Source: Candidatus Hydrogenedentota bacterium | Lineage (GTDB): Bacteria; Hydrogenedentota; Hydrogenedentia; Hydrogenedentales; JAJRTN01 | Reading direction: 5' to 3' | Assembly (NCBI GenBank): GCA_024278275.1 | Contig: JAJRTN010000004.1 | Span: forward strand, 67,149 to 131,148 | Length of the DNA stretch: 64,000 bases | In this document: one piece after another, positions 54,484 to 64,000 of the stretch | How positions within the stretch are numbered: position 1 is the first letter of the stretch | How the letters are laid out: every line of letters begins with the position of its first letter | Notes under the pieces: generated by a model | What the model saw: the letters and a program-made list of their open reading frames with translations, nothing else | Told to the model about the DNA's origin: nothing | Databases searched by the model: none | Translations under genes and position numbers: made by a program

Positions 54484-54624
54484 GTTTCCGAATCCTTGCC
54501 GTTGGATACCACTGTGCTTTCAACACGGATAGGGCGGGGAAGGTTCCCCGGCTGCAACAGGAGGCGCACTCCTTAACGGGGGTTGTGGACCCCGCAATGC
54601 CGGAAAGTACAGGAAAGGGAACAC

Positions 54625-55878
54625 ATGGCCGGGTGGATTGATTGGCTTCGGGGCAAGGCGTCGGGGCGCCGTGGGGCGCGTCCGGCGCCACGGCCCCCGG
54701 TGGGATCGTTTAAGACGGTGTCCTTGGCGGAGGATGCGGGAGCGTTGGGCTTCGGGCCGGCGTCGTTCGTGGGACTGCCCAATGAAACGCCTTTTCCCAT
54801 GCTGCGGGTCTACCGCTTCCTGCGGGACGCCATCCCCGACATTTCGGATGCGGTGTGGACGTGGAAGCGGTTGTGTCAGACGGGCTACTCGGTGGCGATT
54901 ACCGAGGCGAGTTCGGACAGGGCCAAGGTTCGGGCGGAACGGCTGGTCCGGGCGCTGGACCGGCGGGTGAACGGCGGCGACCGGGGCATGACGGGTTTGC
55001 TGGACATCCTGTACGCGTCGCTCTTCACCTACGGCGCGGCAGCGTGCGAGATCGTGCTGTCGAAAAGCCGGGAATCGATCTGGGACGTGGTGCCGGTGGA
55101 CGTGTGGACCGTGCGCTTCCGGCGAGAGGACGGACGGTTGCAGGCGTATCAGATGCAGGGGGGCGAGGCGGTTCCGCTGCCCATGGAACGCTTCGTCTAT
55201 ATCGGGATGGACCGGGACGGGACGAACCCCTATGGGCGGAGCATGTTGCGGTCGATTCCGTTTGTGGTGAAGATTCAGCAGCGGCTGATGGAAGACATGG
55301 CGAAGGCGACGCACAACGCGGGCTGGAGCAAGCTGCATGTGCAGTATGCGGGGGAGGAGCGGCAACGCGGTGAGAGCGCCGAGGCGTACCGCGAGCGGAT
55401 GGCGGGGAACCTGGAATCGCTTCGGAGCCGACTGAGCGGGTTGGAAACGGATCAGAATCTGGTGACCTATGACAATGTGAAGGTTTCACTGTTGCGGGGG
55501 GACCAGCAGGCGCAGGTTTTCTACGACAACCACAAGGCCATCGAGGAGCAGGTGATCACGGGGATGCACCTCATGCCGATCCTGATGGGACGCAACTACG
55601 GCACGACGGAGACCTATGGTACGGCGCAGTTCGAGATCATCAATCGCCAGGTGGAGACGGTGAACCGGGAAATCGAGGCGTTGCTGTCGCGGCTGTACAA
55701 CTTCGAGCTGGCGTTGATGTGGGGCGAGGCGCGGGCGGAGGTGAGGATGAAGACGAACCGGACGGTGGATGTGTTGAAGGAGGCGCAGGCCCGGGGCAGG
55801 GAAATCGCGAACGCGGTGGCGTTGCGGGAGCAGGGGTTTGTGGACCAGGCGGGGGCCGTGAAACTGCTGGGGGTTTGA
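54625..55878 (+). CDS. Phage portal protein
   Basis: 417 residues from ATG 54625 with GGAAAGGG upstream. It shows portal-family features: an N-terminal arm, the wing domain, NPYGRSMLRSIPFVVKIQQRLMEDMAKATH, and a long helical stem/crown (EIINRQVETVNREIEALLSRLYNFELALMW). It is the ring at the capsid vertex through which DNA would pass. It is the first gene of the phage-type module; the next upstream gene is a host-type esterase on the opposite strand, so no terminase precedes it. Codons are heavily G-ending, unlike flanking host genes. Confidence 0.88.
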   Translation: MAGWIDWLRGKASGRRGARPAPRPPVGSFKTVSLAEDAGALGFGPASFVGLPNETPFPMLRVYRFLRDAIPDISDAVWTWKRLCQTGYSVAITEASSDRAKVRAERLVRALDRRVNGGDRGMTGLLDILYASLFTYGAAACEIVLSKSRESIWDVVPVDVWTVRFRREDGRLQAYQMQGGEAVPLPMERFVYIGMDRDGTNPYGRSMLRSIPFVVKIQQRLMEDMAKATHNAGWSKLHVQYAGEERQRGESAEAYRERMAGNLESLRSRLSGLETDQNLVTYDNVKVSLLRGDQQAQVFYDNHKAIEEQVITGMHLMPILMGRNYGTTETYGTAQFEIINRQVETVNREIEALLSRLYNFELALMWGEARAEVRMKTNRTVDVLKEAQARGREIANAVALREQGFVDQAGAVKLLGV

Positions 55879-55929: not shown

Positions 55930-56631
55930 ATGGAACTTGAGCCGTTTGTTTTTCGGCGTTCGGGGCGGTTGCTGGGGGTGCGCGGGGCACCCGATGGGGA
56001 GGACGCCGCGTTGATGGAGGCGGTGAATCGTTATGCGCTTCGGCCTTTGGGGCGGGAGGAGTTCGCGGTGTTCACGCTGGACCTCTGTCACAACCAGGTG
56101 GATCGCCATTTCAGCCGTTTCCCGGAGGAGGAATTGGAACGGATCAACGACATGACACCGGGACGGCCTTTGCTGGAGCGTCACGATCTGCGGGGTTCGC
56201 TGCCGCGGGGGATGTTTTTCCGGTCGTCGCTGCACCACGGGGAGGAGCGTGTGTCGGTGCGGCCGGACGTGTACGTGATGCGCACGGTGGAGAACGGGGA
56301 CTTCATCACGAACATCGAGGGCGGGGTGTACCGGGAGACGTCGATTGGCTTTTCTTTCCGTCTGCCGGAGTGCGGTATCTGCGGGAAGGACCTGCGGACG
56401 TGCGAGCACATTCCGGGACGCAGCTATGGCGACAAGACGTGCCACTTCATCATGCGTGACGTGATGGAGGTGATCGAGGGATCGGTGGTGTCGTCGGGGT
56501 CGCAGGGGACGGGGTTTGTGCCGGGCGCGCGCTCGGCGCCCCTGGAGGCGCGGGCCGCCCTGACGGCGGCGCGGGAACAATTCCATCAGCCCATCGAGCT
56601 GTGCTCGCCGGGGCTGTGGGCGGAGGAATGA
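55930..56631 (+). CDS. Phage prohead protease (HK97 type)
   Basis: 233 residues; GAGGAGGAAGC precedes the ATG. Pattern of family U35: GRPLLERHDLRGSLPRGMFFR (catalytic His in ERHD), then GGVYRETSIGFSFRLPECG (catalytic Ser in TSIGFS). A Cys-rich insert follows (GICGKDLRTCEHIPG with a CxxC pattern) that could bind zinc. It should cut scaffold and capsid N-termini during maturation. It lies between portal and capsid as expected. Confidence 0.82.
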   Translation: MELEPFVFRRSGRLLGVRGAPDGEDAALMEAVNRYALRPLGREEFAVFTLDLCHNQVDRHFSRFPEEELERINDMTPGRPLLERHDLRGSLPRGMFFRSSLHHGEERVSVRPDVYVMRTVENGDFITNIEGGVYRETSIGFSFRLPECGICGKDLRTCEHIPGRSYGDKTCHFIMRDVMEVIEGSVVSSGSQGTGFVPGARSAPLEARAALTAAREQFHQPIELCSPGLWAEE

Positions 56632-56634
56632 AGG

Positions 56635-57438
56635 ATGCGGAAGACCTTGTGGATGGTGCTCATCCTGGCGGGGCTGCTGGCGGCGATGGGGCCGAGTCCG
56701 CGCTACCTGGAGGAACTGGTAATCGGCGGCGGGTACGGTTCGCCGCCGGACGGGGGGATGGACCTGGAGGCGGACGGGAACGTGCTGACGGACGGCAGCG
56801 TGACGGTCGGCGGCGCGGTCACCCTGGGGGGGAATCTCGCGGTGGCGGGCGACACGGGCCTGGGCGTGGACTACACGCCGGGTGCGCGGCTCCATGTGCG
56901 GACGGCGAGTGATGGCGACTTCGCGCCCACCCTGTTGTTGCACAACGCCAGCCAGACCGTCGGCACGGCGGCGGGGGTGCAATTCCAGACGGCGGGGGCG
57001 GACGTGGACCGCGCGAAGGGGGCGATTATTTATGAATCGACCACGTCTTACGGGCGCGGGGACATGCACTTTCTGAACAGCGATTACGCGGGCGCGGGCA
57101 GCGCCGGTCTCGCGTCGGACATTCGCATGACGTTGACCAACGACGGGCGGCTGCTGATCACCCAGTACCTGGGCACGCTCACGGATCATGATTTGCTGTC
57201 CCTGGCGACCGGCGCGGTATCGGTGAATGGCGATCTCGACGCGGGGGTGGACGGCTTGGCCCGGGGTGTGCTGACGGCGTGGGATGGGGTGGGCGGCACG
57301 GCGCCGGGCGTGGTGCGGCTTCACGCGCCCGGCGGCAGTGATTGGTTCCTCTTTGTCGAGGACGATGGCACGCTTCGGATCCATGACGTGCTGCCCACGT
57401 CGAATACGGACGGATCGATAGTGGGCCTGCAGAATTAA
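56635..57438 (+). CDS. Signal-peptide-bearing beta-repeat protein in the phage module
   Basis: 267 residues, starting four bases after the protease stop. It opens MRKTLWMVLILAGLLAAMG, an export signal or membrane anchor, unusual for a virion gene. Then come hexapeptide-like beta repeats (TDGSVTVGGAVTLGGNLAVAGDTGLGVD) and a jellyroll-like C-terminus (GVVRLHAPGGSDWFLFVEDDGTLRI), resembling phage tail-fibre or trimeric surface proteins. It may be displayed on the host envelope. No family is named with confidence. Confidence 0.65.
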   Translation: MRKTLWMVLILAGLLAAMGPSPRYLEELVIGGGYGSPPDGGMDLEADGNVLTDGSVTVGGAVTLGGNLAVAGDTGLGVDYTPGARLHVRTASDGDFAPTLLLHNASQTVGTAAGVQFQTAGADVDRAKGAIIYESTTSYGRGDMHFLNSDYAGAGSAGLASDIRMTLTNDGRLLITQYLGTLTDHDLLSLATGAVSVNGDLDAGVDGLARGVLTAWDGVGGTAPGVVRLHAPGGSDWFLFVEDDGTLRIHDVLPTSNTDGSIVGLQN

Positions 57439-57455
57439 ATGTGAGGGGTGTGGTG

Positions 57456-57644
57456 ATGCACGAAGGTTGTGACGCGTGCGCCTTTGAAAAGGTGGCCGAG
57501 GTGCAATTTCGGAATCTTGGCGAGGATCTGCGTGAGTTGAAGGATCGGGTGGGACGGCTGGAGACGACCCTGGCGCGGGGTGTGCTGCTGCTGGTGGCGA
57601 ACCTGGTCGGGGTGATCGTCACGCTGGCGGGGCAGGTGTTCTGA
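57456..57644 (+). CDS. Small holin-like protein (XhlA-type)
   Basis: 62 residues from ATG 57456 with GAGGGG seven bases before. A CxxC (Cys5, Cys8) precedes a heptad coiled coil (VAEVQFRNLGEDLRELKDRVGRLETTLARG) and one C-terminal transmembrane helix (~42-60). This matches XhlA-like proteins that accompany holins and endolysins. It lies in the head module instead of with the endolysin at 63237, which is atypical. Confidence 0.65.
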   Translation: MHEGCDACAFEKVAEVQFRNLGEDLRELKDRVGRLETTLARGVLLLVANLVGVIVTLAGQVF

Positions 57645-57664: not shown

Positions 57665-58369
57665 ATGTATTGGACACTGAAGGTGCTTCCGCCGGGGGAG
57701 GAGGAGACGAAGGCGGCGGCGGATCCCTGTGGCCGGTTTGTCTTGCAGCGCCATCGCGACCGCGAGGGGGCCCATCTCGATCTGCGGCTGGAACAGGATG
57801 GCTGTTGTTGCGGTTGGCGCATCGACGGGGCGGGGCTGGAGGAAGGGGCGCCGGCCACGGAGAAGGGGCCGCACCCGTTGCGCTGGCTGGAGCAGGACGG
57901 CAACGCGGAACGGCTGGACCAGGGAAGGTACGGCTGGGAATATCGCCGGGACGGCGAGGGCGTGCTGGTGCTTCACGGCCGGGACGGGACGCGGCGTGTC
58001 GCGGTTTCGCGGGTGAAGTTGCTGCCCTTGTCGGCGGTGCGGGCGGTCCATGATGCCGTGATCGAGCTGGGGGTGGAACCGGGAGCGGCGGCACAGTTGT
58101 TGCGGGACGGTCACCTGGCGCGGCGGCGGGCGGTAGCGCGGTTTTACGGCCTGGGGCGTGAACTGGATGGCCGGGCCTTTGACGAGGCGTTGTGGCGGCG
58201 GACCTTACGGGAGTGTTCGCTGGAGGAAGTGGAGTCCCACCTGCGGGGCTACGAGATCCGCTTCGATGAAAAAAATCCGCCCGTGCCGGTGTCGCGGCCG
58301 GAGGCGCTGGACGAGGAAGACGCGTCGGGGGACGCCTCGCGGGCGATGGCGATCCTGGCGGTGGAATAA
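57665..58369 (+). CDS. LigD-type 3'-phosphoesterase domain protein in the phage module
   Basis: 234 residues. Residues ~22-120 match the LigD N-terminal phosphoesterase domain: FVLQRH (His30), AHLDLRLEQDG (His37, Arg41, Glu43, Asp45), KGPHPLRWLEQDG (His70) and RYGWEYRRDG. These occupy the positions of the catalytic His residues in the bacterial non-homologous end-joining ligase LigD, whose domain trims 3' ends of broken DNA. The C-terminal ~110 residues are helical, acidic and unassigned. No ligase or polymerase domain is attached. It sits between a holin-like gene and the capsid genes, so a DNA-end function in the particle is possible. The homology is by eye. Confidence 0.7.
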   Translation: MYWTLKVLPPGEEETKAAADPCGRFVLQRHRDREGAHLDLRLEQDGCCCGWRIDGAGLEEGAPATEKGPHPLRWLEQDGNAERLDQGRYGWEYRRDGEGVLVLHGRDGTRRVAVSRVKLLPLSAVRAVHDAVIELGVEPGAAAQLLRDGHLARRRAVARFYGLGRELDGRAFDEALWRRTLRECSLEEVESHLRGYEIRFDEKNPPVPVSRPEALDEEDASGDASRAMAILAVE

Positions 58370-58429: not shown

Positions 58430-58810
58430 ATGGCTTTTGGCGATGTGGGGGGCGCGGTGACGGCGCTGGTGATTACGTGCCGGACGAAGGCGTCGGGCAC
58501 GGTGGCGATCAGCAAGGGTGACGCGGTGAAGTTGACGGGGGCGTACACGGTGGACAACGCGACGGACGCGGAGGACGTGATCTTCGGGCAGGCCCTGGCG
58601 GACGCGGCGGACAACGGGCTGGCGCTTCCGGTTAAGGTGCGGGGCATTGGGATCTTCGCCTATGACGGCACGGCGCCCGTGGTGGACGGCGTGTCGGGGG
58701 TGCTGGCCTCGGCGACGGACGGCAAGGTGAAGGCGCCGGCCGCGGGCAATGGCGTGGGGATCAATGTGAAGGTGGACAGCGCGGCGGGCAAGGTCCACGT
58801 ACTGCTGTAG
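58430..58810 (+). CDS. Capsid decoration protein
   Basis: 126 residues; AGGAGGATATACG precedes the ATG. It is small, all-beta and Gly/Ala-rich, with the phrase VTISKGDAVKLTG-like (GTVAISKGDAVKLTGAY) and ALPVKVRGIGIFAYDGTAP, as in head-decoration/stabilisation proteins. It is directly upstream of the capsid gene, the usual order. Confidence 0.75.
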   Translation: MAFGDVGGAVTALVITCRTKASGTVAISKGDAVKLTGAYTVDNATDAEDVIFGQALADAADNGLALPVKVRGIGIFAYDGTAPVVDGVSGVLASATDGKVKAPAAGNGVGINVKVDSAAGKVHVLL

Positions 58811-58827: not shown

Positions 58828-59877
58828 GTGGGATATGACACGGGATTGATTCGGGACCGGGTGGCTTTCCTGGGGCAGGCCCCGGAACGGCTGCGCGAGA
58901 TTCGCGGGCGGGAGCTGTACGAGACGCTGAACACGCTGGGCCTGACGCACAGCCAGTTTTTCCGCGCCCTGGGCAGCAATGTGCAGGCCTATTGCGCGGA
59001 GGAGTTCGGGGTGGACACGAGCCGGGTGACGGTGGACCGGTTTTTTCAGTCCGACCCGAACGCGAAGTGGCTTTTCCCCGACGTGGTGCGCGAGGCGGTG
59101 CTGGAGGGGATGCGGCGCAAGCCGGTGTACCCGGAGCTCATCGCGGGGGACGAACACATCGAGGGCACGGCCTATGACGTTCCCTACGTGAACGAGTCGG
59201 CGGAGGACGAAGAGCTTCGGACGGTGGCGGAAGGCGCGGCGATCCCGGAATCGGAGATTACCTACGGTGACCGTATCGTGCGGGTGGACAAGAAGGGGCG
59301 CGGCGTGGTGGCGTCGTACGAGGTGATCCGGCGCATGTCCATGGACCTGTTGCGGGTCCACCTGCGCCGCATGGGCGAACGGCTGGGGCGCGACCTGGAC
59401 GCGCGGTTGGCGTCGGTGCTGGTGAACGGTGATTCGAGTGGTGCGAGCACCGCGCCGGTGACGTTGAACACGGCGACAAGCGGGACGTGGACCTATGGCG
59501 ACCTGGTGTCGGGCTTCATCAGGCTCTCCCAGGAGCACTTCTTCTCGCCCACCCACCTGGTGGCGGACGCGGCGACCCTGGAGGATCTGCTGAACCTGGC
59601 GGAGTTCAAGGACGGGCGGCTCTTCGACTTCGCGCGGACGGGCGAGATGATGACGCCCCTGGGGATGAAACTGGTTCATCTTTCGGATCAGCCGGCGGGC
59701 AAGGTGACCCTGCTCGACGCGGGTTTCGCGGTGCAGAAGCTGACGGAGCAGGAGCTGCTGGTGGAAAGCGACAAGCTGATCAACCAGCAGTGGGACCGGA
59801 CCTACCTGACGGTGGTGACGGATTTCGCGGTGCTTTATCCGAAGGCGCGGGTGGTCATCGACGGGACCTGGGCCTAA
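58828..59877 (+). CDS. HK97-fold major capsid protein
   Basis: 349 residues from a GTG at 58828 with GGGGAG upstream. It shows the helical N-arm (RELYETLNTLGLTHSQFFRALG), E-loop region (VPYVNESAEDEELRTVAEGAAIPESEITY) and spine-helix/P-domain (YEVIRRMSMDLLRVHLRRMGERLGRDLDARL), then A-domain strands. The length is typical of HK97-fold capsids. Position after decoration and before connector supports it. Confidence 0.85.
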   Translation: MGYDTGLIRDRVAFLGQAPERLREIRGRELYETLNTLGLTHSQFFRALGSNVQAYCAEEFGVDTSRVTVDRFFQSDPNAKWLFPDVVREAVLEGMRRKPVYPELIAGDEHIEGTAYDVPYVNESAEDEELRTVAEGAAIPESEITYGDRIVRVDKKGRGVVASYEVIRRMSMDLLRVHLRRMGERLGRDLDARLASVLVNGDSSGASTAPVTLNTATSGTWTYGDLVSGFIRLSQEHFFSPTHLVADAATLEDLLNLAEFKDGRLFDFARTGEMMTPLGMKLVHLSDQPAGKVTLLDAGFAVQKLTEQELLVESDKLINQQWDRTYLTVVTDFAVLYPKARVVIDGTWA

Positions 59878-60020
59878 GGGGGCGGGGGAGGCCTTTTCCG
59901 GCATGGGAGGAGGCCTCCCAACGTGGGGACTGACGCAAGCGAAGCGAGGAACGAGCGGAGATGTGTCTGTCCCCATGTTTGCGCCCCGGCGAGACTGGCA
60001 TGGCGCCGTGCGAAGGGTAT

Positions 60021-60121: not shown

Positions 60122-60541
60122 ATGGCTGCTTTTGCGGTGGAAGCGGAGGTGCGGCGGAAGTTTCAGTTGGAGGAGGTGTCGGTGGTGCCTTCGGAGTTGG
60201 TGCAGGCGAGCATTGATGACGCCCATGGGGAGGTGATGGCGCGGCTGTCGCCGATAGTGGATACGGGCGCGCCGTCGGCGGGGCTGGTGCTGGGCGAGAC
60301 GCTGCTGGCGGGGGCGCACCTGTTGACGTCGATGGCCTCGAAGGACGCGGCGGATCAGAAGGATCTGTCGCTGGGCGGACAGCGCATCGGGACGGGCGAC
60401 CGCTTCGCTTCCCTGTTGGCCATGGCGTCGAAGGCGGAGGCGCGGGCCTGGTTGACGCTGGCGCCCTATCTCGCGGCGGTGCCGGGTGAAGCGGCGGGTA
60501 ATGTGACGGATACGGTGGCGGTGCTGGGAACGGAGCAATAA
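60122..60541 (+). CDS. Head-tail connector (gp6-like)
   Basis: 139 residues from ATG 60122 with GGGAGGAGG upstream. All-helical start (VRRKFQLEEVSVVPSELVQASIDDAHGEVMARL) is the gp6/gp15 connector pattern that reads DNA-exit ring geometry. The C-terminus (KAEARAWLTLAPYLAAVPGEAA) is a short helix-rich tail. It follows the capsid gene as expected. Confidence 0.72.
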   Translation: MAAFAVEAEVRRKFQLEEVSVVPSELVQASIDDAHGEVMARLSPIVDTGAPSAGLVLGETLLAGAHLLTSMASKDAADQKDLSLGGQRIGTGDRFASLLAMASKAEARAWLTLAPYLAAVPGEAAGNVTDTVAVLGTEQ

Positions 60542-60556: not shown

Positions 60557-61240
60557 GTGGCGATAGTCTTGGGAAACTACAGCTTCGACGAGGGGCGTGT
60601 GTCCGTGGCGGAGCGCCAGGAAGAGGTGGGGGGCCGCGACGGCCGGGTGATTGTGCTGAAAGGCATGACACCCGCCCTGGCCTCGGTGGCGGCGGTCGAG
60701 GCGGCGCTGGACGCCATTCTCGCGGCGGCCTCGGACGGCGCGCCGGTAGCCTTGTCCCTGCGCGCGGGGCGGCGGATGTGGGTGACGCGGTCGGACTTCG
60801 CGCGGGAGGTGGCGCGGGGGTCCCGGGTGGGCAGCTTCGCGCTGACGCTGACGGCGGAGGTGCCCTGGGAGGAGTCGGAGGCGGAGACGGTCCAAACATG
60901 GAGCGTGTCGGCTTCGGGTACGGGGCAGGGCCTGGCCGCCGCGGGCAACACCTGGACACCGCCGCGTGTGACGCTCACGGCCGCGGACGATCTGGTCTGT
61001 CCCGAGCTGAGCGACGGGGACCGGAGCCTGGTGTACCCGGGGGTGGTGGAGAAGGGAGCGGTGATCGTCTTCGACGGTGCGGCGGAGGTGATCACGCTGG
61101 ATGGCGAGGATGTGACGCCTTACGGGGAGGGCACGTTTCCACGCATCACGCCGGAGGGCGTCACGCTGACCTTCAGGGATGATGTGACAAGTTCACACAT
61201 GGCCTTGGTCGAAGCGGCGTGGCGTGATCGATGGTGGTGA
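60557..61240 (+). CDS. Distal-tail (Dit)-like protein, 3' end altered by an insert
   Basis: 227 residues from GTG 60557 with AAGGAG upstream. The N-terminal beta domain with GGRDGRVIVLKG resembles Dit proteins; the C-terminal galectin-like domain includes GNTWTPPRVTLTAADDLVCPELSDGDR and DGEDVTPYGEGTFPRI. The last ~16 codons come from a segment flanked by two 15-base repeats (61183 and 61327). Without that segment the frame would end about 12 codons after the repeat, in a GTGA overlap with the next gene. Dit proteins form the hub at the tail end. Confidence 0.55.
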   Translation: MAIVLGNYSFDEGRVSVAERQEEVGGRDGRVIVLKGMTPALASVAAVEAALDAILAAASDGAPVALSLRAGRRMWVTRSDFAREVARGSRVGSFALTLTAEVPWEESEAETVQTWSVSASGTGQGLAAAGNTWTPPRVTLTAADDLVCPELSDGDRSLVYPGVVEKGAVIVFDGAAEVITLDGEDVTPYGEGTFPRITPEGVTLTFRDDVTSSHMALVEAAWRDRWW

Positions 61241-61341: not shown

Positions 61342-61389
61342 TATTGTTGCGGGTAAGGCTGCGTGACGGGACCGAGGGTGGCGAGGGAC

Positions 61390-63051
61390 ATGGACTACGT
61401 AATCGAGGTTTTCGACGCGGCGGGTTTGCGGGTGGGGAGGTTTCGCGAGCCGCCGTTGCTGGACGCGACGCGGAACGGGCCGGACGAGGCGGACGTGATC
61501 CGGGACCTGGCGCCGGTGGATTTGCCGTCGCTGGCGCCGGGTTACCGGGTGCGCGTGCTGGTGGAAGGCGATCTTTTCTGCGAGGGCATCGTGACCTGGA
61601 CGGGGCCGGCCTGGGGGGATACGAAGAAGCTGGTGCTGGATCGGTATGTGCGGTTTCACGAGGTGCTGGCCTTCGAGGCGCGGGGGGAGGCGCGCGCGGG
61701 GAACACGTGGATGTCGGAAGCGTACCTGAACCGGCGGATAAGCGACCTGGTGAAGGATGTGATCAACCGGGCGCCCGGTCCGATGCATTACACGGTGGAA
61801 CACGGCGCCTATCCCGAGGGGGCGCAGCGGGAGTATGCCAAGTTCGTGGCGCGGAAAAAGGACGCGAACGAATTGGCGGTGGGGGGCATCGACACGGGCC
61901 AATGGGTGGACGCTTCCCGCATTGACGCCACGTTGGCCTACGCGAAGGACGGCGACACCATCGCGGGGTTGAAGGTGGACGGCGCGGCCTGGCCCGACCT
62001 GCGGCTCATGATGATCGACGCGGAGGAAACGTCGCTGAACAGCCATGCCGTGGCGCGTCATCCCGAGGTGGCGGACTGGAGCGCGGCGCGCTATGAGAAC
62101 AGCCCCTACGCGCTGCGCGGGGAAAAGGCGAAGGTTTTCCTGCAGGCCCTCCTGGACGGGGACGGCCTGGACATCATCGAGCTGAACCCCCATCGTGACG
62201 GCACGGGGGCCTTCGATGATCGGGTGGACAGCTATGGGCGCTACCTGGAGCTGGTGTACGGCGGGGGCAAGTGTTTCAACGCGGCGTTGGTCGAGCAGGG
62301 CCTGGCGGAGGTTTACCTGTACGAGGAGGGGCGCTACCTGGAGCCGTCCCTGGCGCTGAAGGAGTTCTACTCTTACGGAGGGGAACACGGCGACTCCGTG
62401 GAATGGACGGCGGAATCGCTGAGCGCCTTCGGCGCGCGGGGCGGCGTGCTTGAAGTGTTGACGTTGTTGGCTTACGCGGCCGGGGGCCGGGTGTTCTCGG
62501 TGGGACCGGAGCTCGCGGTGACCTTTCGCGGCGGGGACGTGGTGGACCGGGTGGTGTGCTATGACGCGACCCGGGTGAGCGTCCAATACGGAAGTGAGAC
62601 GGCGCGACTGGTGAACGCGCTGGCCCTGTCGGGCCATCCCCTGTCGGGGCCGTTGGTGAAGGCGTACCGGCGGGAGGAGAGCGTGGCCGCCTTTGGGGAG
62701 AACGGGGAAACCCTGGCCTGCTTCGCGTTGACGGACGGGCGGGACCTGGACCAACTGGCGGCGGGGTGGGCCTTTATCGACGGCCACCCGTTCCGCCTGG
62801 CGGAGGCCGTGGAAACGGTGGATGTGCCGGCGCCCCTATCGGCGGACCGGGTGGACCTGGTGCAGGCGCGGCTCGACGGCTGGGCTGTTGATATCAAGCA
62901 GGGGACGGAGAGCGCCACGCCGGCCGCGCCCGCGGCGGACACGGACTGTATCGCCCTGGCGGAGATCTATCTGCGGCCCGGCATGACGTCCATCGGGGAC
63001 AGCGACGACGGGACCAACGGCTATATCACCGACCGGCGGGTGTTCCTGTAG
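61390..63051 (+). CDS. Tail-tip hub (Tal-like) protein with an internal staphylococcal-nuclease domain
   Basis: 553 residues from ATG 61390 (alternative GTG 61363). Residues 1-170 form the baseplate-hub first domain (YVIEVFDAAGLRVGRF ... WMSEAYLNRRISDLVKDVINRAPG). Residues ~176-330 are an SNase domain: Asp187-Gly-Asp189-Thr190, Arg205 in DLRLMMID, Asp210 and Glu213 in IDAEE, Arg284 in DSYGRYL, and CFNAALVEQGLAEVYL. All catalytic and calcium residues of SNase are matched. Residues ~340-420 resume the hub fold (GGVLEVLTLLAYAAGGRVFSV). The nuclease is therefore inserted within, not appended to, the hub. It would be delivered with the tail tip. Confidence 0.75.
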   Translation: MDYVIEVFDAAGLRVGRFREPPLLDATRNGPDEADVIRDLAPVDLPSLAPGYRVRVLVEGDLFCEGIVTWTGPAWGDTKKLVLDRYVRFHEVLAFEARGEARAGNTWMSEAYLNRRISDLVKDVINRAPGPMHYTVEHGAYPEGAQREYAKFVARKKDANELAVGGIDTGQWVDASRIDATLAYAKDGDTIAGLKVDGAAWPDLRLMMIDAEETSLNSHAVARHPEVADWSAARYENSPYALRGEKAKVFLQALLDGDGLDIIELNPHRDGTGAFDDRVDSYGRYLELVYGGGKCFNAALVEQGLAEVYLYEEGRYLEPSLALKEFYSYGGEHGDSVEWTAESLSAFGARGGVLEVLTLLAYAAGGRVFSVGPELAVTFRGGDVVDRVVCYDATRVSVQYGSETARLVNALALSGHPLSGPLVKAYRREESVAAFGENGETLACFALTDGRDLDQLAAGWAFIDGHPFRLAEAVETVDVPAPLSADRVDLVQARLDGWAVDIKQGTESATPAAPAADTDCIALAEIYLRPGMTSIGDSDDGTNGYITDRRVFL

Positions 63052-63236: not shown

Positions 63237-63692
63237 ATGCCTCGAGGCCGCAACGACATACCGCTCATGACCCTTCTGGACGGTGAGATGGTGAGCCACT
63301 TCCGGCTTCGCGAGTTCGAGAACGCCGAGGGGCTCGCCATGGTACATCCCTCGGTTCTGCTGTCGCTGGAAAAGACGCGGCGCGACCTGTGTGCCCTGGA
63401 AGGCGAAACGGTGTGCGTCCTCATTACCGACGCGGTACGCACGGCGGCGGACATGGCGCGGCTGGCCGCACGTTTGGGCTGGACCGACGAGGGCGGGTTG
63501 GTGTCGCGCCGGTCGAAACACCAGGCGAAGTACGGCGGCATTGCGGTGGACCTGGTGGCGGTGCGCGCGGCGTCGGGCGTGCGGGTATCCCAACGGAACG
63601 TGGGCCTGGTGTGCCGAAAGTATTTTGATTTTGTGAAGGATGACTACGCGGACGGGCACGTCCACGCGGACAACCGGGGCGTGCTGAAATGA
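63237..63692 (+). CDS. M15-family peptidase, endolysin-like
   Basis: 151 residues; AGAAGGAG precedes the ATG. M15 (D-Ala-D-Ala type) zinc site: SRRSKHQAKYGGIAVDLV (His95, Asp105) and GHVHAD (His141/His143, Asp145). N-terminal HFRLREFENAEG is the usual peptidase M15_3 start. It should cut peptidoglycan cross-bridges for lysis or DNA entry. It lies just before a holin-like gene. Confidence 0.82.
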   Translation: MPRGRNDIPLMTLLDGEMVSHFRLREFENAEGLAMVHPSVLLSLEKTRRDLCALEGETVCVLITDAVRTAADMARLAARLGWTDEGGLVSRRSKHQAKYGGIAVDLVAVRAASGVRVSQRNVGLVCRKYFDFVKDDYADGHVHADNRGVLK

Positions 63693-63713: not shown

Positions 63714-64000
63714 ATGAGTATTGGAACAGTGTTGACATCGGACGCGGGGCTGACCCTGCTGGGGACGGTGCTGGGCGGGGTATGGACCTGGATCCGGTCG
63801 AGTGAATGGCTTGCGCGGCGGCGGCGCGAAAGTACGCGGCGGGCGTTGCAGGTGTTGGAGACGGCGGTGGAACAAACCTACCGTTGTTACGTGGAGGCCA
63901 TCAAGGAGGGGCGCGCCGACGGCAAGCTGACCTCCGCCGAGCGGGTGAAGGCGCGCATGATGGCGCGGGAGCGCGCCCTGGCCATTGCGCGCACGGAAGG
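63714..64000 (+). CDS. Holin-like/phage membrane protein, partial
   Basis: Starts at ATG 63714 with GGAGAAGG upstream and runs off the window. An N-terminal hydrophobic helix (~8-26: GLTLLGTVLGGVWTWI) is followed by Arg-rich amphipathic helices (SSEWLARRRRESTRRALQVLETAVEQTYR). The combination resembles class II/III phage holins encoded after endolysin genes. The C-terminus is unseen. Confidence 0.6.
   Translation, partial: MSIGTVLTSDAGLTLLGTVLGGVWTWIRSSEWLARRRRESTRRALQVLETAVEQTYRCYVEAIKEGRADGKLTSAERVKARMMARERALAIARTE

Follow-up and report, generated by a model that had tools for sequence, protein, structure and literature searches.

A staphylococcal nuclease domain within the tail-tip hub of a gene transfer agent-like gene cluster in Hydrogenedentota

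What would a nuclease do inside the tail tip of a phage-type particle? Staphylococcal nucleases (SNases) are typically secreted, and calcium dependence is established enzymology for the family; in other systems, hubs and VgrG spikes carry enzyme domains as effectors. A sequence-only reading of a 64,000-nucleotide stretch of a Candidatus Hydrogenedentota genome (contig JAJRTN010000004.1; hereafter the window) proposed that a tail-tip hub encoded there contains a full SNase domain, a combination that it set apart from the known hubs with lysozyme or peptidase domains, and that the domain would reach the target cell with the particle, like a DNA-degrading effector. Here we examine this hub, the gene cluster around it and its relatives across the order, and weigh what the nuclease might be for.

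The open reading frame in the window spans 61363–63051 (562 amino acids), and relatives favour a start at the ATG at 61390, which gives a protein of 553 residues (Table 1). A Pfam profile search with this protein matched the SNase family PF00565 above the cut-off (E = 6e-7, 30.3 bits versus 21), and Foldseek with its own predicted structure retrieved staphylococcal nuclease 1ihz (target TM-score 0.73), revealing an OB-type nuclease fold. No other SNase is encoded in the 5.35-Mb host genome. The calcium ligands and the equivalents of the catalytic Arg35, Glu43 and Arg87 are complete: residues D187, D189, R205, D210, E213 and R284 of the hub correspond to D19, D21, R35, D40, E43 and R87 of SNase (first base of each codon at 61948, 61954, 62002, 62017, 62026 and 62239, respectively). 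In the orthologue alignment, D187, R205, E213 and R284 are invariant (25 of 25), and D189 and D210 are conserved in 23 and 24 of the 25 sequences, which confirms the set of DGDT aspartates, Arg205, Asp210, Glu213 and Arg284 originally picked out by eye. The SNase stretch is the most conserved portion of the hub protein, with a mean pairwise identity of 65–70% versus 44–54% in the remaining hub. The domain thus shares its fold and catalytic residues with staphylococcal nuclease (PF00565), but is embedded in a virion-type protein, whereas that enzyme is secreted alone.

The hub part matched none of the Pfam and PHROG hub profiles and was recognized by structure alone. We modelled an intact orthologue, the 587-residue hub of genome G002 (pLDDT 88.6, pTM 0.87), whose best PDB matches are contractile injection system (CIS) baseplates, the tips of a Haloferax virus and T5, Mu gp44, T4 gp27, Listeria gp18 Tal and VgrG, with a Foldseek probability of 1.00 for 1wru, 1k28, 3gs9, the T5 tip, VgrG and the CIS hubs. 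Nucleases rank below hubs among these PDB matches, and viral structure models concur. The query-normalized TM-scores of the hub matches in the PDB are only 0.28–0.36, a range to be anticipated when several domains and a long insert make up the query, and because the individual scores are low, we base the family assignment on the many independent hub matches. The model of the window protein itself is good across most of the SNase domain and poor beyond residue 460, and Foldseek also matched it to contractile injection system hubs. Structure prediction and the PF00565 match therefore bear out the reading of a complete SNase within a phage-type tail-tip hub, whereas the gp27 and Tal domains that it anticipated gave no profile match. 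The protein resembles the gp27/gp44/Tal hub family in fold and in being encoded directly downstream of the distal tail protein (Dit; 60557–61240), and differs from it in an SNase-bearing insertion of ~210 residues between the N- and C-terminal hub parts. The inserted segment is delimited by a natural SNase-less hub in genome G046 (L182, 56–1162, minus strand), in which these two parts are contiguous and residues ~134/175 to 345 are absent. An SNase held in this position would, as proposed, accompany the particle to its target, provided that a particle is formed, as we infer from the genes.

The C-terminal end of the window protein has a different origin. In relatives, a hub of ~580 residues is followed by a separate 173-residue protein, an intact copy of which matches the baseplate protein phrog_20556 at 5.5e-6. 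In the window, the hub stops near residue 459 and runs on in frame as residues 79–173 of this tip protein, so that the final ~95 residues (about 62764–63051) are homologous to the tip protein and ~120 hub residues are gone; consistently, a profile of intact hubs aligns to the window protein only up to position 475 of 583. Hub sequence therefore resumes past the SNase domain, as first read, only to about residue 459. The fused part is predicted with low confidence (pLDDT mostly <45), and in this fusion the window hub differs from all other hubs seen. The fusion is either a genuine change or an assembly error, and the function of the window copy, with its C-terminal domain lost, may be impaired.

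Table 1. Features of the hub and its gene cluster in the window, and of the terminase locus
Feature	Position	Strand	Evidence and remarks
Portal protein, Portal_Mu type	54583–55878	+	phrog_3753 1e-44, PF06074 1.4e-8; orthologues 68–76% identical
Presumed head maturation protease	55930–56631	+	Named by position; phrog_16951 (function unknown) 1e-33; conserved across the order
Accessory protein, fibre-like by eye	56635–57438	+	Homologues at just two other loci
67-aa conserved protein, putatively XhlA/holin-like	57441–57644	+	Position conserved; by eye, a coiled coil with a membrane helix at the C terminus
234-aa conserved head-cluster protein	57665–58369	+	Conserved in the loci compared
126-aa virion (decoration-like) protein	58430–58810	+	phrog_4588 virion structural protein 2.3e-8
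Major capsid protein (MCP)	58828–59877	+	phrog_3922 2.3e-54, PF25209 2.9e-13; one copy each in 52 of the 68 genomes
Head–tail adaptor-like protein, conserved core	60122–60541	+	ORF opens at 59903; ~138 aa conserved in 19 loci; named by position
Distal tail protein (Dit)	60557–61240	+	PF22768 SPP1_Dit 1.8e-5, barely above cut-off; phrog_33 1.7e-5
Tail-tip hub with inserted SNase, C terminus fused to a portion of the adjacent tip protein	61390–63051	+	Alignment, Pfam, structure models
SNase domain	61876–62379	+	Residues ~163–330 of 553; PF00565 6e-7; segment absent from the G046 hub
C-terminal part from the 173-aa tip/receptor-binding-like protein	62764–63051	+	Matches residues 79–173 of separate tip ORFs
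Presumed M15-type peptidase/endolysin	63237–63692	+	phrog_465 endolysin, weak (0.0017); orthologues 63–71% identical
Presumed holin, 122 aa, running beyond the window end	63714–64000	+	Position after endolysin conserved; weak DUF533 matches only, in relatives
G000 terminase locus	Contig C190, L113:7098–10639		TerS-like ORF, 3D-domain lipoprotein, then the TerL that is conserved phylum-wide

The hub belongs to an ordered head-to-lysis cluster found in many families, which runs from portal, presumed protease, small membrane-type protein, 234-residue protein, decoration-like protein and capsid through adaptor, Dit, hub and tip protein to a presumed endolysin and a presumed holin. The names of the lysis genes are based on position and weak matches; Pfam searches with the presumed endolysin and with the 67-residue protein gave no match. 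The fibre-like gene lies here between the protease and the small conserved gene and is placed elsewhere in one of the two other loci that carry it, and a longer homologue of its product has a weak C-terminal match to a phage depolymerase. In the phage relative fHoEfm07, the terminase is encoded next to the portal, and the gene between adaptor and Dit specifies a tape measure; the Hydrogenedentota cluster has neither.

The terminase proved to be encoded elsewhere. An absence of terminase, suggested by blank PF03237 searches in most cluster-bearing genomes, was overturned by phrog_2, which reached a divergent but conserved large subunit (TerL); used as a query, this TerL is present in 57 of the 68 genomes of the order and in 37 of the 38 good ones, the full-length copies being mostly 54–71% identical. 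TerL and the capsid cluster lie on one contig yet ~48 kb apart in G012 and ~13 kb apart in G029, so the split is real; in G014, TerL is directly downstream of the capsid cluster. No conserved tape measure was found, PF10145 matches being sparse (5 of the 19 cluster-bearing genomes), and a search for the tail tube with phrog_21417 was blank, as was its control throughout. A further locus with the tail tube or tape measure could have been overlooked.

A contig scan for the cluster returned 28 loci, nearly all from Candidatus Hydrogenedentota/Hydrogenedentes; two titled 'uncultured bacterium' and 'Rhodothermaeota' match contigs of genomes that we place in the same order. Alignment-based pattern scans of viral contigs found no close relatives of the hub or the capsid, and the phage relatives of the MCP reach only 23–35% identity; locus L023 gave a single weak, partial hub match. 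Among the genomes compared, nearly all of them fragmented metagenome assemblies, the MCP is single copy in 34 of the 38 good ones and occurs as two fragments in two genomes, with 59–71% identity across families. Patristic distances correlate with those of RpoB in Mantel tests for the MCP (r = 0.71, 27 genomes), TerL (r = 0.73, 28 genomes) and the weakly resolved hub tree (r = 0.43, 19 genomes); none of 2,000 permutations reached the observed r for any of the three, and most families were recovered. For six close pairs, dN/dS was 0.11–0.18 for the whole hub, 0.04–0.15 for its SNase part and 0.06–0.14 for the MCP, values that are rough because some dS exceed 1. The SNase is under purifying selection. 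The flanking proteins sampled at three loci are host-type or unmatched and include no integrase. These phage-derived particle genes appear, from their sequences, to be inherited vertically across the whole phylum. Outside the order, three loci of family f40 (L223, L224 and L225) carry close capsid relatives (426–434 bits) with a decoration-like gene, a portal in two of the three and, in one, a stop inside the capsid gene; no hub was found at these loci, which possibly represent a related element in another lineage.

Several lineages lack parts of the system. A hub profile search found no hub in families f6 and f7 and in most of f10, whose hub-less genomes keep the head genes, mostly TerL, and in most cases the genes in the endolysin and holin positions. 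At L163–L177, in these three families, head-plus-lysis clusters lack both hub and tip protein, and some retain the adaptor and/or Dit only; in G047, G009 and G016, adaptor and Dit are present and the hub is absent. Lineages that lost the tip thus lost the SNase as well but retain head, terminase and lysis genes, so that the domain most probably acts in attachment or delivery and not in packaging. SNase-bearing relatives in the family of G046 suggest that the domain was lost from its hub and not ancestrally absent. In G021 and G024 (L029 and L031), the calcium ligand D189 (D21) is replaced by N or R, and in G021 D210 (D40) is also replaced by E, which suggests that nuclease activity is lost or altered in these two. 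With a calcium ligand lost there and the SNase absent from the G046 hub, catalysis is not essential everywhere. The hub gene of G003 (L041) contains a TAG stop.

Gene transfer agents (GTAs) package mostly random host DNA, are inherited vertically and have their genes at multiple loci. Phage-derived head and packaging genes, vertical inheritance with purifying selection and a distribution over several loci are likewise found here. The GTA of Rhodobacter capsulatus (RcGTA), the closest comparison, brings its DNA as far as the periplasm and depends on competence proteins, and the paper on its structure mentions no nuclease (PMC7296036). Both systems have phage-derived head and tail-tip genes, a T4 gp27-related hub, a ~150-residue peptidase gene in the tip region, vertical inheritance and several loci (PMC7296036, PMC10883770), whereas RcGTA belongs to another phylum and encodes a tail tube and a tape measure, neither of which was found here, and in Hydrogenedentota the terminase lies away from the head cluster. 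An SNase in a hub is not without precedent, contrary to the initial impression: a hub homologue with an N-terminal SNase-like domain was described in 2007 in the BtI1 prophage of Bacillus thuringiensis israelensis, a single phage-like element of a large-phage lineage (PMC2147016), whereas the domain described here is internal, conserved and phylum-wide. Our literature search, which most subscription papers lay outside, found nothing linking Hydrogenedentes/Hydrogenedentota with GTAs and no built-in entry nuclease described for any GTA; as far as that literature shows, the combination of a GTA-like element with an SNase hub is new, as is the phylum.

On balance, we think it probable that the hub of a vertically inherited GTA-like particle carries an SNase-type nuclease that processes delivered DNA for uptake. 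More tentatively, and with less confidence than we place in that core, the element may be an ancient, phylum-wide GTA in which the particle is reduced, perhaps to the point of having almost no tail, and the nuclease of the tip hub readies delivered DNA for uptake. We infer the formation of the particle, its DNA content, the nuclease activity and its site of action, and keep the label 'GTA-like' because the evidence for the particle is genomic. The presumed lysis genes of the cluster would release the particle. The low-calcium cytoplasm of the producer would keep the nuclease silent, making an immunity gene needless, and the enzyme would turn active outside the producer, at the tip where DNA exits the particle. 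Delivered DNA would then be trimmed or nicked at or in the recipient envelope, enabling its uptake by the competence machinery (ComEC). ComEC is present in 65 of the 68 genomes, and this near-universal occurrence fits uptake by the competence route. Against the model stand the tail tube and tape measure that were not found, the loss of a calcium ligand or of the whole SNase in some genomes, the possibly impaired hub of the window, and the risk that an enzyme placed where DNA exits would degrade the cargo itself.

The same GTA-like particle might instead leave its cargo untouched and use the nuclease to clear extracellular DNA, from the lysed producer chromosome or biofilm, that would trap particles. 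The typically secreted, calcium-dependent nature of SNases, the lysis-type genes within the cluster and the placement of the domain in an exposed tip module all speak for such a role, but a free secreted nuclease would be a simpler solution, and the lysis-position genes persist in tip-less lineages without the SNase; we consider this rather unlikely, and place it behind DNA processing at the recipient envelope and ahead of an effector. That the particle is an antibacterial weapon with the SNase as its effector, a role resembling the one first suggested, we hold to be improbable, even though the hub fold matches CIS and VgrG hubs and effector enzymes are known on hubs and VgrG spikes elsewhere. 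The same domain occupies the slot in all lineages that have it (every full hub seen except one) and varies less than any other part of the protein, whereas the slots of polymorphic toxins do the opposite; this uniformity disfavours a diversifying effector; moreover, there is no conserved immunity-like neighbour in the loci compared, and the capsid, portal and terminase are kept, which would be pointless for a tailocin-like device.

We give very little credence to the idea that the loci are ordinary decaying prophage remnants with the SNase hub as a leftover. The tube and tape measure that were not found, the fused window hub, the stop codon in G003 and the loss of the hub in several lineages point in that direction, but the single copy, the 59–71% MCP identity across families, an RpoB-like tree, low dN/dS and sampled flanks free of integrase speak against it. 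An active or ordinary prophage was rejected because the element occurs once per genome across the order, its trees agree with that of RpoB, dN/dS is low and the sampled flanks hold no integrase.

GTAs have been recognized in few lineages so far. Hydrogenedentota, an uncultured group, would provide a phylum-wide GTA candidate in which a phage seems to have been domesticated independently and carries a nuclease at the delivery end. The natural series of SNase-bearing hub, SNase-less hub and no tip, with head genes kept throughout, would make the role of a particle-borne nuclease in gene transfer directly testable.
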